DNA of 33,321 bases from NCBI GenBank assembly GCA_025361625.1, contig JANYKL010000106.1, positions 1-33,321 on the forward strand, written 5' to 3'. This stretch comes from Acidobacteriaceae bacterium (lineage in GTDB: Bacteria > Acidobacteriota > Terriglobia > Terriglobales > Acidobacteriaceae). The translations under genes and the position numbers were made by a program. This document shows positions 14,782 to 24,750 of the stretch, piece by piece (the stretch's first letter is position 1; each line of letters opens with the position of its first letter). The notes beneath the pieces are model-generated. The model was not told the origin of the DNA and searched no databases. It saw only the letters and a program-made list of their open reading frames with translations.

Positions 14782-14935
14782 GTTGCCGAAAAATATAACG
14801 AGGTTTTAGCAGACTCATCACTCCTTAAGCGGCAGTTTATTAACGCCGGTCGAAACGCCTGGCGTTTCTATTTGCCCTCCCATTGATCACTCCCCAATTC
14901 AGCATTATCTGCGGCGGTGGACTATTCTTGTGTCC

Positions 14936-15742
14936 ATGATTTCGGTTCTCAAAAGGATGCAGTTGTCAGGTGGCGCAGCCGTCATCGTTATCTCGGGTTT
15001 GCTGATCTCTTGCCAGCCTTCTGCGAACTCGAACGGCATGGCGCCATCTCAAAGCGCGGAGCGGAGAGAGGAGACACCTCGCGGTCATGAACGAGAGCAA
15101 CAAGCTCGAATGGGCGCACCTGAGCCGGGAGGGCAACGGTATCAAGATCAAGACACGAAGAACGAAATCGGAAGCGGAAGCGAGCGCCACCGAAGTCGTC
15201 GACACCATCGCGGCCGCGAGCCGGATCGTGAACCGGAACGACAAGGCTCGAACGACACTGGCGGACGGTACCAGGATCAGGGTTACCAGGGTCGGGCACG
15301 CGCCCAGGCACCTACATCCTTAAAGCCTTCATCGTCAGAGCCGTCGTCCTCAACAGCGGGCGAATCGCGTGACTTGAGCCGCGACGAAGCCGCAGGAGGG
15401 CACATTCTCCGTAAACACGTTGGGCAATCGGATGACGATCTGCGTCAGCGCATTCAGCGCGAGAGCCGCATCACGGGAGCATCGACTTACACCGATCGTC
15501 CCACCGCAGAGCGAGCTGTCGGAGCGGCCATTGCACAATCGCGTGACAAAATTGACCGCTGGCTCAGCGGCGGGAGCCATCAGAACCTGGTGCTCGACTA
15601 CGACAGCCCGACCCCAGTTGGCCGGACCATCAACCGCGGCGAGAGCGAGGCGCATCCCTGCGGGCACGCCGTAGTCGTACTAAAATACTCCGAAGCAAAC
15701 AATTATTACGTCCTAACCTCGTATCCGGAGTGCCGCCAATGA
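14936..15742 (+). CDS. Lipoprotein toxin with C-terminal RNase A-like (CdiA-CT type) domain
   Basis: This 268-residue protein has three parts. (1) A type II signal peptide with lipobox LISC, lipidated Cys at residue 26. (2) A polar low-complexity linker (about 27-150) rich in Arg, Glu, Gln and Gly, with a repeated RYQDQ. (3) A C-terminal domain (about 155-268) that matches the bacterial RNase A-like fold of CdiA toxins: GGHILRKHVGQS, ASTYTDRPTAERAV, LVLDYDSPTPVGR, YYVLTSYPECR. His161, Arg172, Thr261 and Tyr263 have spacings (11, 89, 2) almost identical to those I recall for the catalytic His175/Arg186/Thr276/Tyr278 of Yersinia kristensenii CdiA-CT. It probably cleaves RNA in target cells. No CdiA filament, CdiB, VgrG or Rhs part is present. 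ATG 14936 is used; TATTCT lies 7 nt before it. Its stop overlaps the immunity gene start. Confidence 0.85.
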   Translation: MISVLKRMQLSGGAAVIVISGLLISCQPSANSNGMAPSQSAERREETPRGHEREQQARMGAPEPGGQRYQDQDTKNEIGSGSERHRSRRHHRGREPDREPERQGSNDTGGRYQDQGYQGRARAQAPTSLKPSSSEPSSSTAGESRDLSRDEAAGGHILRKHVGQSDDDLRQRIQRESRITGASTYTDRPTAERAVGAAIAQSRDKIDRWLSGGSHQNLVLDYDSPTPVGRTINRGESEAHPCGHAVVVLKYSEANNYYVLTSYPECRQ

Positions 15743-16080
15743 GCTCTAATTCGAAGCCGGATATTACCGCCGCAAATTTTTCGGCTCTGCATACATTTCT
15801 GCGCGGATACTTTCACGAAGATGTTGAAGATGAATACGGTACTGCGCCGGAAGCTGCCGATCAATTCTGCGACGATGCTGAGACCGCCGAGCGCATTCCA
15901 GTTGCGCGCGAGTGGCAGCAAGTCTGCGAGCTGACCCAGTCGCAACCGGTTGCCCTCAATGCGGCATTGAAGAAATTAGGCAGCGCTATTCGCCTGAACG
16001 AAGAGGAAATTCCGAAAGTCAGCGCAGTTTTCGCGCGATGCCTTACGACAAAAACCGCGCGTAAGCTAGTTAACGAATAA
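15739..16080 (+). CDS. CdiI-like immunity protein to the RNase A-like toxin
   Basis: This 113-residue acidic protein lacks signal peptide and membrane segments, so it acts in the cytoplasm. Its first half reads ALHTFLRGYFHEDVEDEYG, then APEAADQF, a pattern I recall from the CdiI_2-type immunity family (Leu-x-x-Phe-Leu...Tyr-Phe-x-x-Asp...Tyr-Gly...Ala-x-x-x-Phe). The start ATG at 15739 overlaps the toxin stop as ATGA, with GGAG 8 nt upstream, so translation is coupled and the immunity protein is made with the toxin. Position, size, charge and motif together support immunity; the pairing is inferred. After its TAA the sequence TTAACGAATAA is repeated once (16083-16093) and a T-run follows. Confidence 0.8.
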   Translation: MSSNSKPDITAANFSALHTFLRGYFHEDVEDEYGTAPEAADQFCDDAETAERIPVAREWQQVCELTQSQPVALNAALKKLGSAIRLNEEEIPKVSAVFARCLTTKTARKLVNE

Positions 16081-16147: not shown

Positions 16148-16717
16148 TTATGGTTCCCGCCCAACTCCCAATGCGTCTGCAACGCGGTTGATGTAGTTGA
16201 ACCAGGACGCGATCAGCGTAATCTGCAGAATTGCCTGATCGTCGAATCCCTCCGCTCGCAGCTTCGCATGGTCGCTCTTCCCGATTTTTGTAGCATCCTT
16301 CGTAAGCTGCACAACGTACTCCACCATGAGGCGCTCTTGTGGAGTGATCGGAGCGGTCGTGTAGTCGCGCTCGAGCGCTTCGACCAAATCTTTATCCAAA
16401 GTGACGCGACGCAGAAACTCTGCGTGAGATTCAATTCAATAGACGCAGCGATTGGTTATCGACACCATGGTGGCAATCATCTCGTGCTGCCGCCGCGTAA
16501 GCGGCAGCTCGGGAGACATCAGCGCCCCAAAGGTCGAAAAGGCATGATGCAGCGCCTGCGGAATCAGGGAGTGCGAAGCCACGATCTGCGAACCGCCGCC
16601 TTCGGAGGGGTGAATCGGCGTCGCGTATTCTTGCGGGTAAAGCGCCCTTTGGCCCTGCACGGCGTCTTGTAGCTCCTGGCTTGCCTTAGTAAGCGGAATC
16701 GTCTTAATCCAGGTCAT
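16148..16717 (-). CDS. AhpD-like peroxidase, predicted selenoprotein (in-frame TGA = Sec94)
   Basis: Read through a TGA at 16438-16436, the gene encodes 189 residues of the peroxidase-related, AhpD/carboxymuconolactone-decarboxylase family (TIGR01926-like). Before the [19 protein letters not shown] with Glu79 and Cys91. After it: [12 protein letters not shown] with His98, then [20 protein letters not shown] and [20 protein letters not shown], the usual family C-terminus. The TGA is codon 94, so the site reads Cys91-Val-Tyr-Sec94-x-x-x-His98 with Glu79 twelve residues before Cys91. This equals the E118/C130/C133/H137 spacing of Mycobacterium AhpD, where C133 is the peroxidatic cysteine. A SECIS-like hairpin follows. 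It should reduce hydroperoxides in the cytoplasm. Standard gene calling would split it at 16399/16436. It diverges from gltA; GAGG lies 13 nt before the ATG. A nonsense mutation is the alternative. Confidence 0.85.
16409..16425 (-). promoter_or_regulatory. SECIS-like hairpin downstream of the Sec TGA
   Basis: On the minus strand ACGCAGA pairs with TCTGCGT over 7 bp with loop GTT (or 6 bp with loop AGTTT). The loop G is 18 nt after the TGA. Bacterial SECIS elements recruit SelB and have a short stem with a G in the first two loop positions, about 16-37 nt after the UGA; this fits. Confidence 0.7.
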
Positions 16718-16931: not shown

Positions 16932-18224
16932 ATGCCGCAAGATACGATCACTGTCACCGATAACCGTACCGGGCAAAGCTACACGCTCCCCGTGGAGAAC
17001 GGGACGATTCGCGCAATGGATATGCGCAAGATCAAGACGGGCCCCGGTGATTTCGGTCTGATGACCTACGATCCCGCCTTCATGAATACCGCATCGTGCA
17101 AGAGTGCCATCACCTTCATCGATGGCGATAAGGGAATTCTGCGCTACCGGGGATATCCCATTGAAGTGCTGGCGGAAAACTGCACGTATCTCGAAGTTGC
17201 CTACCTGCTTCTATTTGGGGAACTGCCAAACGAGGCGCAACTCAAAGACTGGGTGCACGACATCACGCACCACACCATGCTGCACGAGACTACGAAGAAA
17301 TTCATGGAAGGCTTTCGCGATAACGCCCACCCCATGGCGATGCTCGTGAGCACGGTAGCTGCCCTTTCCGCCGTCTATCCCGATGCAAAGAACATTCATG
17401 ATCCAGAGACGCGCTTGCTTCAAATCAAGCGCCTGCTCGGCAAAGTGCCGTCGATTGCGGCGTTCTCGTATCGTCACCTCGTCGGCTTCCCTTACATTTA
17501 TCCCGACAACGACCTGACTTACACCGAAAATTTCATGAACATGTTGTGGAAGATGGTCGAGCCGAAATATCTCGCGCACCCGGTTTTGGCTCGCGCCCTC
17601 GATATTCTTTTTATTCTTCACGCTGATCACGAACAGAATTGCAGCACCAATGCCATGCGCGCCGTTGGAAGCGCGCAGGCTGATCCTTATCTCGCGACCG
17701 CCGCCGCCGCCGCCGCGCTTTCAGGCCCTTTGCACGGCGGAGCGAACGAAGAAGTTCTCCGCATGCTCGACGAAATCGGATCGAAAGAAAACATCCCCGA
17801 CTACATTGAGAAGATCAAGGCCGGCAAGGGACGTTTGATGGGCTTCGGACACCGCGTCTATAAAAATTTCGATCCGCGCGCCACCATCATCAAGCGCACC
17901 GCCGAGAGCGTGTTCGAAGTCACCGGACCGAACGAGAAGCTCGACATCGCCCTCGAACTCGAACGCATCGCGCTCGAGGACGAATATTTTATCCAGCGCA
18001 AGCTCTACCCGAATGTCGATTTCTACTCCGGCATCATCTATCAGGCGATGGGATTCAAGCCAGAAATGTTCACTGTTCTGTTCGCCATTCCGCGCACTGT
18101 CGGCTGGCTGGCGCAATGGCAGGAAATGCTGACCGACCCCGAGCAGAAGATCGCAAGGCCGCGGCAAATATGGATTGGAAATGACACACGTGAGTTCGTA
18201 CCCATGGACAAGCGCGGCAAGTAA
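16932..18224 (+). CDS. gltA: Citrate synthase
   Basis: Citrate synthase condenses acetyl-CoA and oxaloacetate, opening the TCA cycle in the cytoplasm. The 430 residues and the N-terminal beta-rich region (TITVTDNRTGQSYTLPVENG) fit the type II, GltA-like hexameric form. The catalytic triad is present: His268 in SGPLHGGANEE, His307 in MGFGHRVYKNFDPRA and Asp364 in NVDFYSG, close to E. coli H264/H305/D362. The GFKPEMFTVLFAIPRTVGWLAQW stretch is the usual C-terminal signature. GGAGG about 7 nt upstream sets the ATG. It diverges from the AhpD-like selenoprotein gene across 214 bp with no other feature I can support, and converges on the MoaD-like gene. Confidence 0.97.
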   Translation: MPQDTITVTDNRTGQSYTLPVENGTIRAMDMRKIKTGPGDFGLMTYDPAFMNTASCKSAITFIDGDKGILRYRGYPIEVLAENCTYLEVAYLLLFGELPNEAQLKDWVHDITHHTMLHETTKKFMEGFRDNAHPMAMLVSTVAALSAVYPDAKNIHDPETRLLQIKRLLGKVPSIAAFSYRHLVGFPYIYPDNDLTYTENFMNMLWKMVEPKYLAHPVLARALDILFILHADHEQNCSTNAMRAVGSAQADPYLATAAAAAALSGPLHGGANEEVLRMLDEIGSKENIPDYIEKIKAGKGRLMGFGHRVYKNFDPRATIIKRTAESVFEVTGPNEKLDIALELERIALEDEYFIQRKLYPNVDFYSGIIYQAMGFKPEMFTVLFAIPRTVGWLAQWQEMLTDPEQKIARPRQIWIGNDTREFVPMDKRGK

Positions 18225-21717: not shown

Positions 21718-24700
21718 ATGGCGTTTGGTTTTGGCTTCAACAGACAAAAGGTTCTCAGCTCTGCAGAGAAGTTCGTTCAGCAGGGAAAGCTGCAGAATGC
21801 CATCACTGAATACGAGAAGGTCCTGAAGCACGATGCCAAGGATCTCACGGTCAATAACACCATTGGCGACCTTTATTCGCGCCTCGGCGACAGTGCCAAG
21901 GCGATCGAATGTTTCAAGACTGTGGGCGACGCGTATGCGGCGCAGGGCTTCACGGTTAAGGGCATCGCGATGTACAAAAAAATCACGAAGCTGCAGCCGA
22001 GTGTCGACTCCTCGCTGAAGCTGGCGGAGCTCTACACGCAGCAGGGCCTATTCAACGATGCCCGCGCACAATATCTGCAGGTCGCCGAAGATTTCATGAA
22101 GGCCGGGGACCATGACCAGGCGGTCCGGCTCTTTCAAAAAGTGCTTGAGATGGATCCGGAAAATGTTCCGATGCGAGTGAAGCTCGCGGAAGTTTACGTA
22201 AAGCTCAACAAGAAGAAAGAGGCATGGGAAATATTCAGCGCGGCAGCCGAGGCGCTGCGCGCCCGGGGATCTCTAGCCGGGTCGGAAGAAATTCTGAAGC
22301 GAATGCTGGTGCTCGATCCGGGCAACAGCTACGTGCTGCTGTTGCGCGGAAAAGCCGCTCTTGAAGCCGACGACGCGAAGAGCGCGATCAGTTATTTTGA
22401 AAAAGCCGCAGATATCGATTCGCATCCGGAAGGGCTGCGTGATCTGCTGAAGGCGTATGCACGCATCGGCAACATCGCTAAGGCGGCTCCGGTTGCTGAA
22501 AAATTATTGACGGTTCATAACGATCCCGAAGGGCTATTTTTGCTGGGGGAAGCTAGTTCTCGTCTGGGCCACTATCACGAGGCGCTTGAAATTTACTCGC
22601 AGCATGCAGACCGGCTTCTGGCGGCGGATTCCACCAAGTTGCTGCAGACCCTCCACAGCATGATCACGCACGTGCGCGACGACTCCACCGCGCTCGACTC
22701 GCTTCTAATGCTGCTGAATAAAGCGGGCGAGACCACCCATGTGAATGAGGTCACAGAATTACTGGCGCATTCCTGCGTAAAGAATGGAAATCTTCAGCGC
22801 GCCCGCGACTTGTACCAGATGTTGACCGCTGCTGAACCGCAGAATCAGGTGCACTTGCAGAATTATGAGCAAGTCATGGATTTGATGGATTCGGCGAACA
22901 CGGTTGCGGGCATTTCTCCTGAAGAAGGCACGATGATTATCGAGGAGCTGGAAGCTACTTCGCCAGCCATCGACCAGTCCTTTCCCGACGACGTGGCCAT
23001 CGCGGTGCGATCGGCCGTCACGGATGCCGACTTGTTTCTCTCTTACAATCTGCCGGAAAAGGCGATTGTGCCCTTGCTGCAGGTTCTGCCGCAGGCCCCC
23101 CATGACGCGCGGTTAAACCAGCGCCTGGCAGCGCTCCATACCCGATTTAAGCGATTCACCGAAGCCGCGGTATGCTGCCGCACCCTCGAGAGTGTTTATA
23201 GCGAGGCCGGGTTCCCCGATGAAGCAGTCCGCTATGGGGAGCTAGCATCGCGCTACGAGCAGACTTCTGAGTTGGCAGCCTCGAAGACCCGCGTCGCAAA
23301 AGCTGCTTCCTCGATAGAAATTCCTTTGGCGTCGCGCGCGGCTGCTGCTGGCAGCGCCGCTCCCTGGCCAGTCGCTTCGGCAGCGCCGATGGTCGAAGAG
23401 TTCACGATTGAAGAGTTGCCCGTCGAAGCTCCTGCTGAAGCGCACGACCTCTCCGGCGAATTTATCGACGGCACAACGACTGAGCCTTCCGGAAACTGGG
23501 AGAGCTCAATTTCCAAAGAGCCCGTCCTTTCGGCGACGGACTTATCGGCCGCAAGCGGCAACCGAGACCTTGCAGCTTCTAACCCCGAAATAGCGGAGAC
23601 AGTCGAGGAGATTCGTTTCTATCTTGAGCACTTCATGACCGAGCAAGCTCGGTCTGGCATCGAGAAGCTCGAAACCTTGACCAAAGACGCTAGCATCCTT
23701 AATCCACTGCGTGCCGCCTTGTCATCCGCCGCTCAACCTGCTGCCGAAGTTGAAGTCGATGTCGATGTTGCGGAGAACAATGGCGATGAATCAGACGTAA
23801 CCGCCGAGTTTGAATGCGAAGTCGATGCTTCTGCTCATGCTGAGTTGGTGGCTATCCCCGACTCGATCTCCGGCGACCATGCTGCCGACCATACCTTGAC
23901 AGACCATACCTTGACCGACGATGCGTTGAGCGACGATGCGTTGACCCACGACGCGTTGACCATGGAAGTTACGCCAGACCCGGCATTTGCCGAGGCTGAC
24001 CTCGGAGTCGCCGCGCACGCTACGGAATTTCCTGCGATGGCGCCCCCAGCGGACGAGGAACTTGCGGTCGCGCCTGCCGGTGTCCTTGATTCACTCGTTG
24101 CCGATATCGAAGCGTCGCTTGGGAATTCGTTTCCGCAAGCCGCTCCGCTCGAAACCACTGCAGTCGCAGCATCGGCTGCGGCCGTTTCTGCCCGGACGCC
24201 TCCGAAGGCAGAACCGATTCCCGCAAGAATTCCTACCCCGACTCAGCCTGGCGCTCCGGCGATTGCCGTAGCCGCGCCAAAAGCAGCCAATCCGATCGTG
24301 GGCGTCGATCTTTCGGAGATGTTTGGCGAACTCAAACAAGAATTGGAAGAAGACGTAGCGGTTGGCGACGACGATCCAGAGACGCATTACAATCTCGGCG
24401 TCGCGTTCCGTGAAATGGGATTGCTTGACGAAGCCATCGCCGAATTGCAAAAGGTCTGCACCTCCATGGAACGGGGCGCCGCCTTCAATCAGCCAGTGCA
24501 AACCTACACTTGGCTGGCCCAATGCTTCCTTGATAAAGGAGTGCCCCAGGCTGCCATTCGCTGGTATGAAAAGGCGCTTGGAATTCCCGGCCTCGACTCG
24601 GAAGCAAAGCTTGCCATTAATTATGAACTCGGATCCGCATGCGAAAGCGCGGAGGACAAGCCCGCAGCTTTGCGTCACTTTACCGATGTGTACGGCGCTA

Positions 24701-24750
24701 ACATAGATTATCGCGACGTCGCTCAGCGCATTCAGGCCTTAAAGTCGTAA
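21718..24750 (+). CDS. Large TPR-repeat protein
   Basis: This 1010-residue protein without signal peptide or membrane segment has TPR units through about residues 10-540 (for example GKLQNAITEYEKVLKHDAKDL, AGDHDQAVRLFQKVLEMDPEN), then a low-complexity acidic/Ala-rich region (about 540-850), and a final TPR block (860-1010: DPETHYNLGVAFREMGLLDEAI). The short basic start MAFGFGFNRQK is seen in related acidobacterial and deltaproteobacterial proteins, which I recall as similar. It is probably a cytoplasmic scaffold; the partner is unknown. Five tandem 15-bp repeats lie at 23887-23961 in the acidic region. The ATG at 21718 has GGAG about 12 nt upstream, weakly placed. It stands at the head of a loose run of plus-strand genes. 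Confidence 0.87.
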   Translation: MAFGFGFNRQKVLSSAEKFVQQGKLQNAITEYEKVLKHDAKDLTVNNTIGDLYSRLGDSAKAIECFKTVGDAYAAQGFTVKGIAMYKKITKLQPSVDSSLKLAELYTQQGLFNDARAQYLQVAEDFMKAGDHDQAVRLFQKVLEMDPENVPMRVKLAEVYVKLNKKKEAWEIFSAAAEALRARGSLAGSEEILKRMLVLDPGNSYVLLLRGKAALEADDAKSAISYFEKAADIDSHPEGLRDLLKAYARIGNIAKAAPVAEKLLTVHNDPEGLFLLGEASSRLGHYHEALEIYSQHADRLLAADSTKLLQTLHSMITHVRDDSTALDSLLMLLNKAGETTHVNEVTELLAHSCVKNGNLQRARDLYQMLTAAEPQNQVHLQNYEQVMDLMDSANTVAGISPEEGTMIIEELEATSPAIDQSFPDDVAIAVRSAVTDADLFLSYNLPEKAIVPLLQVLPQAPHDARLNQRLAALHTRFKRFTEAAVCCRTLESVYSEAGFPDEAVRYGELASRYEQTSELAASKTRVAKAASSIEIPLASRAAAAGSAAPWPVASAAPMVEEFTIEELPVEAPAEAHDLSGEFIDGTTTEPSGNWESSISKEPVLSATDLSAASGNRDLAASNPEIAETVEEIRFYLEHFMTEQARSGIEKLETLTKDASILNPLRAALSSAAQPAAEVEVDVDVAENNGDESDVTAEFECEVDASAHAELVAIPDSISGDHAADHTLTDHTLTDDALSDDALTHDALTMEVTPDPAFAEADLGVAAHATEFPAMAPPADEELAVAPAGVLDSLVADIEASLGNSFPQAAPLETTAVAASAAAVSARTPPKAEPIPARIPTPTQPGAPAIAVAAPKAANPIVGVDLSEMFGELKQELEEDVAVGDDDPETHYNLGVAFREMGLLDEAIAELQKVCTSMERGAAFNQPVQTYTWLAQCFLDKGVPQAAIRWYEKALGIPGLDSEAKLAINYELGSACESAEDKPAALRHFTDVYGANIDYRDVAQRIQALKS
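23887..23961 (+). repeat. 15-bp in-frame tandem repeat (five copies)
   Basis: Five units of 15 bp encode DHTLT, DHTLT, DDALS, DDALT and HDALT within the acidic linker of the large TPR protein. The repeat keeps frame, so slippage would change linker length without breaking the gene. Confidence 0.9.

Follow-up and report, generated by a model that had tools for sequence, protein, structure and literature searches.

The locus and its in-frame TGA

The window, meaning the whole stretch of DNA analysed (33,321 nucleotides), carries on its minus strand a predicted selenoprotein gene of the AhpD-like family. The gene, its key positions and its neighbours are as follows.

14930-15742, plus strand: toxin-domain gene of the RNAse_A_bac (CdiA-CT) type, by profile match; convergent with the predicted selenoprotein gene
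15730-16080, plus strand: CdiI_2 immunity gene, by profile match; overlaps the toxin gene
16148-16717, minus strand: predicted AhpD-like (TIGR01926) selenoprotein gene, 189 codons plus a TAA stop, with the TGA at codon 94 read through; based on translation, profile matches and orthologues
16481-16483, minus strand: Glu79 codon, equivalent of AhpD Glu118; invariant, with the spacing E-12-C-3-U-4-H of M. tuberculosis AhpD
16445-16447, minus strand: Cys91 codon, predicted partner thiol of the CxxU motif; invariant in an 18-sequence alignment
16436-16438, minus strand: in-frame TGA, predicted Sec94 of C91-x-x-U94; at the same column in 30/30 and 80/80 orthologues, Cys in solved homologues
16424-16426, minus strand: His98 codon, equivalent of AhpD His137 and also codon 1 of the frozen 18-mer; invariant
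16409-16426, minus strand: invariant 18-mer CACGCAGAGTTTCTGCGT, a SECIS-like hairpin (arms 16425-16419 and 16415-16409, loop GUU 16418-16416); frozen in 30/30 orthologues
16932-18224, divergent from the predicted selenoprotein gene: citrate synthase; adjacent in 17 of the 80 orthologous loci
21718-24750, plus strand: large TPR protein; synteny with the predicted selenoprotein gene holds in 26 of the 80 loci

Translated on the minus strand, 16717-16148 yields a product of 189 residues; its one TGA is codon 94, and TAA closes the frame. Standard ORF calling reports two separate fragments: 16436-16717 (93 aa), and 16148-16399, which opens 12 codons past the TGA. The motif reads C91-V-Y-U94-I-E-S-H98, with E79 twelve residues ahead of C91. 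Profile scores for the joined protein are 118.2 bits with TIGR01926 (peroxidase-related enzyme; curated cut-off 81.8), 39.1 bits with PF02627 (CMD; cut-off 23) and 38.3 bits with the TIGR00778 core (cut-off 27.8). These domain scores and the E-C-C/U-H catalytic residues place it in the AhpD-like superfamily.

The first-pass annotation of this DNA had joined two same-frame minus-strand ORFs, split by one TGA (16438-16436), into a full AhpD-like gene, and the translation and the TIGR01926 and PF02627 scores bear this out. Its placing of the TGA at the catalytic-cysteine position, with a Glu 12 residues before the Cys and family motifs kept downstream, agrees with E79, C91, U94 and H98. It had also described a 6-7 bp hairpin with G in the loop just after the TGA, found here with 7 bp and the loop GUU, and a toxin/immunity pair just beyond the gene, which corresponds to the RNAse_A_bac and CdiI_2 genes listed above.

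Fifteen of the 80 orthologous loci have homologues of both the RNase-A-type toxin and the CdiI_2 immunity protein in the corresponding downstream position. The pair is syntenic but opposite in direction, and no evident link ties it to the selenoprotein. In around 40 of the 80 loci, a gene for an acyl-AMP ligase/ACP/PlsC-type acyltransferase fusion is located downstream on the same strand. This fusion is absent from the window, and the host genome holds no full-length orthologue, only partial matches (the best 34% over part). For these two reasons, the acyl-ligase neighbour is kept as a weak lead to function, and may reflect plain synteny.

Conservation of the TGA and of the downstream hairpin

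A search of 101 relatives revealed 33 genomes with close orthologues, from which 30 full sequences were extracted. The TGA occupies the same column in all 30, down to 66% identity, and Cys is present there in none. The orthologue motif is N-x-C-x-Y-TGA-(I/V)-(E/D)-(S/A)-HAEFLRR. A second genome collection, with record names covering Acidobacteriaceae, Terriglobia, Candidatus Sulfotelmatobacter, Gemmatimonadetes and a few others, gave TGA in 80 of 80 loci and never Cys. The 30-sequence and 80-locus sets overlap in part, several contigs having equal lengths in both, and are therefore not fully independent. Unlike the TGA at codon 94, the genuine stop codons differ among the orthologues (TAA, TAG, TGA). 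The dN/dS ratio is ~0.15 before the TGA and ~0.11 after it (NG86, median of pairs with dS under 1.5), and both halves are therefore under purifying selection in one protein.

The hairpin ACGCAGA-GUU-UCUGCGU begins 10-11 nt past the TGA and lies within the coding sequence. Synonymous change was scored in the 30 sequences at the 68 codons with an invariant residue, Met, Trp and Sec being left out. Eight of them show none: the unbroken run from +4 to +9 downstream of the TGA, plus two Tyr codons, one of which directly precedes the TGA. Outside codons +4 to +9, only 2/62 invariant-residue codons are thus frozen. The six frozen hairpin codons spell CACGCAGAGTTTCTGCGT. Among the 80 loci, this 18-mer is exact in 75, present in a G-U wobble version in two and altered in three by loss of the closing pair only.

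When 396 genomes of the phylum were scanned for exact matches, 23 contained the 18-mer, once each; the reversed control gave 0. In all 23 cases, a TGA lies 12 nt upstream and the gene is an AhpD-like CxYU gene; the flanking translation is that of the window subfamily in 22. The remaining occurrence (L153, genome G163) lies in the gene of a longer relative, AhpD-like as well and with the same motif, in which CFY-TGA-VTAHAEFLR precedes another AhpD-like stretch. Such a longer two-domain relative with CFYU, carrying the exact 18-mer hairpin after its TGA, was observed both there and at L157 (G096). An 18-nt word within a coding sequence, near-invariant across records labelled as two phyla in the second collection, would make an unusually clean SECIS.

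More distant AhpD-like paralogues have hairpins at much the same place, spelled in other letters (ACGGAGA-GGA-UCUCCGU, CGCCGC-GGUC-GCGGCG and others). In a paralogue alignment of seven rows, every cell pairs (100%), and three of the rows show one double change, from C-G to G-C. When the partners are shifted by one to three columns, pairing falls to 22-59%. On these alignments, the covariation is real but small, and the frozen codons weigh more.

Over 64 nt, the folding energy is unremarkable (z -0.42), and 46% of synonymous recodings are no less stable than the native hairpin. Energy was therefore set aside as evidence, and the support for the hairpin is its conservation, not its stability. 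No SECIS family was matched in Rfam, which returned two sub-threshold chance matches only. The hairpin has the position just downstream of the UGA and the G in the apical loop that define a SECIS-like element.

Selenocysteine machinery and the wider AhpD-like family

The host genome assembly (3.83 Mb, 96% complete) encodes the full set selA, selB, selC and selD. The matches to selA (513.3 bits), selB (360.8 bits) and selD (355.1 bits) all exceed their curated cut-offs. The tRNA-Sec gene (selC; 71.4 bits, also over cut-off) has the anticodon TCA and was detected by ARAGORN as well. The selD gene (C59:3081-4031) has its own TGA near the start; a hairpin follows that TGA, and SelD counts as a predicted selenoprotein in its own right (AAG-U-ASK).

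A selB gene over cut-off is found in 31 of the 33 orthologue-bearing relatives, including every one of the 22 with a completeness of 90% or more. The two others are the MAGs G005 and G019, 71% and 80% complete. Conversely, the orthologue occurs in none of the ten selB-less relatives that are at least 90% complete (Fisher p 0.009 for co-occurrence, uncorrected for relatedness). Genome G051, 96% complete, has TGA-bearing AhpD-like paralogues, yet no selB over cut-off. No AhpD-like gene was found beside selB in the host genome. Many relatives (G034, G027, G037, G026 and others) have one in convergent orientation next to selB, bearing TGA or Cys depending on the relative.

A non-random set of 58 more distant AhpD-like homologues from the same class was picked from the search matches, mostly by score. 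TGA is present in 40, always at the window TGA column; the remaining 18 have Cys (17) or Trp (one). At least nine changes of state at this column are required by parsimony, on a quick tree with weak deep forks. Within the window's own subfamily, no Cys form was seen among the orthologues. In one genus, a TIGR01926 paralogue has a Trp codon at the Sec position (L159, genome G097) and its sister a TGA (L158, genome G090). AhpD-like selenoproteins are common in this bacterial class, and are thinly covered in the selenoproteome papers cited here.

Interpretation and comparison with known systems

The gene, its conservation, the hairpin, the machinery and the family membership are directly observed, and we consider it very probable that they constitute a functional selenoprotein gene of Acidobacteriota (Terriglobia-type), with UGA-94 read as Sec via the hairpin to give an AhpD-like CxxU oxidoreductase. 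The in-frame UGA aligns with the Cys of homologues and, judged from sequence, almost certainly specifies an active-site Sec in an antioxidant-type enzyme. The first-pass annotation had proposed Sec at the second position of a CxxC motif, in place of the peroxidatic residue. The first part is supported by the Sec machinery, the SECIS-like hairpin and conservation without decay; that Sec94 would take over the peroxidatic role is what the annotation inferred. It had asked whether homologues carry Cys or TGA at codon 94, and had named decay in homologues or a genome lacking selB, selC or selD as grounds for doubt. The codon is TGA in both orthologue sets, purifying selection acts on either side of it and all four sel genes exceed their cut-offs.

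Glu79, Cys91, Tyr93, Sec94 and His98 are invariant in the 18-sequence alignment. They are spaced like Glu118, Cys130, His132, Cys133 and His137, the relay of M. tuberculosis AhpD (PMC3141380). An AlphaFold model built from 18 sequences (the window protein and relatives), with Cys put in place of Sec, reached a pLDDT of 78.4 and a pTM of 0.72, and is weak at residues 1-6 and 36-50. Its top structural match is D. radiodurans AhpD (6k40, TM 0.77); the debrominase Bmp8 (6ohi, TM 0.68) also matches.

In the proposed mechanism, the hairpin within the gene would direct SelB and Sec-tRNA(Sec) to insert selenocysteine at UGA codon 94. The resulting protein would be an all-helical AhpD-like (TIGR01926) thiol/selenol oxidoreductase, with Cys91 and Sec94 as the putative redox pair and Glu79, Tyr93 and His98 as the putative proton relay. 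Its most likely substrate would be a hydroperoxide or a disulfide-type compound. The selenolate would be oxidised, a selenenylsulfide closed by Cys91 and the enzyme then re-reduced by cellular reductants.

The same selenoprotein might act otherwise than as a peroxidase, with its CxxU pair serving as a thioredoxin-like adaptor, a disulfide/selenenylsulfide reductase or a reductive dehalogenase. This is a possible reading, which we hold as tentative. As described in PMC3141380, M. tuberculosis AhpD serves AhpC as an adaptor and PA0269 has only weak peroxidatic activity, and the Bmp8 match recalls that some AhpD-fold proteins do other chemistry. Against it, the family name and the closest matches point to peroxidase-related proteins and to one AhpD that bears the annotation alkyl hydroperoxide reductase, although these are names and not assays. 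It is improbable that the subfamily is Sec-obligate, unlike relatives in which Sec and Cys have repeatedly replaced each other, and acts on phospholipid hydroperoxides as a bacterial GPX4 counterpart; the lead to this substrate is the acyl-AMP ligase/ACP/acyltransferase fusion downstream in about half of the loci.

Recoding of the UGA in another way (whole-code reassignment, Trp or stop read-through), or a functional 93-residue truncated form, is very improbable. The Trp codon of paralogue L159, where its sister has TGA, is compatible with non-Sec recoding. However, TGA is the normal terminator in 30 of the 80 orthologues and the aligned residue is Cys in 17 of the 18 sampled non-TGA relatives, and the half downstream of the TGA is the more conserved one. 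A pseudogene or a sequencing error, with a TGC/TGT Cys codon mutated or misread as TGA, would look alike in a single genome, as one TGA in an otherwise intact family gene, but has a negligible probability given the same codon in both orthologue sets, purifying selection on both sides, the frozen hairpin and the Sec machinery. Pseudogene, sequencing error and code reassignment were all rejected on conservation.

Under the selenoprotein reading, and since standard ORF calling splits the protein in two, a redox enzyme widespread in soil bacteria is probably misannotated in many genomes.

The E/C/x/x/C/H relay spacing is shared with M. tuberculosis AhpD (TIGR00777; 1knc, 1gu9), whereas the window protein scores only 18.8 bits against the TIGR00777 cut-off of 191.95 (AhpD sensu stricto), with a weak fold match (E 0.1). 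The closest solved structures by sequence and fold are D. radiodurans AhpD (6k40) and the peroxidase-related proteins 2pfx, 3c1l, 2oyo and 2prr; in the alignments, 2pfx, 3c1l, 2oyo and 6k40 have Cys at the position of the window protein's Sec. The CxYU motif and a homologous domain are common to the AhpD_rel_CFYUT (seleno)protein family NF041238, although the score (64.3 bits) is far under the cut-off of 175 and the match spans only positions 152-334 of a 357-position model. The YciW-related (seleno)protein model NF053654 gave 33.2 bits, below its cut-off of 310.

A CxxU AhpD-like selenoprotein was first reported in 2005 from the Sargasso Sea (PMC1088965), followed in 2008 by the AhpD-like 1 and 2 selenoproteins of the GOS data (PMC2398784). 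The TIGR01926 CxxU form is tabulated in a 2026 review, with MCB9421940.1 as the example (PMC13188914). The first-pass annotation was right that AhpD-like selenoproteins had been reported; its label of a new-type selenoprotein falls for that very reason, and the window gene is thus not a new type. On its sequence, it is a genuine added member of the known CxxU AhpD-like kind, in a subfamily with predicted Sec in every copy seen. It has in common with the published TIGR01926 form the CxxU motif, a score above the cut-off of the same NCBIfam family and a small hairpin with a G-containing loop downstream of the UGA. The Acidobacteriota/Gemmatimonadota subfamily would be set apart from the published form by predicted Sec in every copy found and by its near-invariant 18-nt hairpin word.
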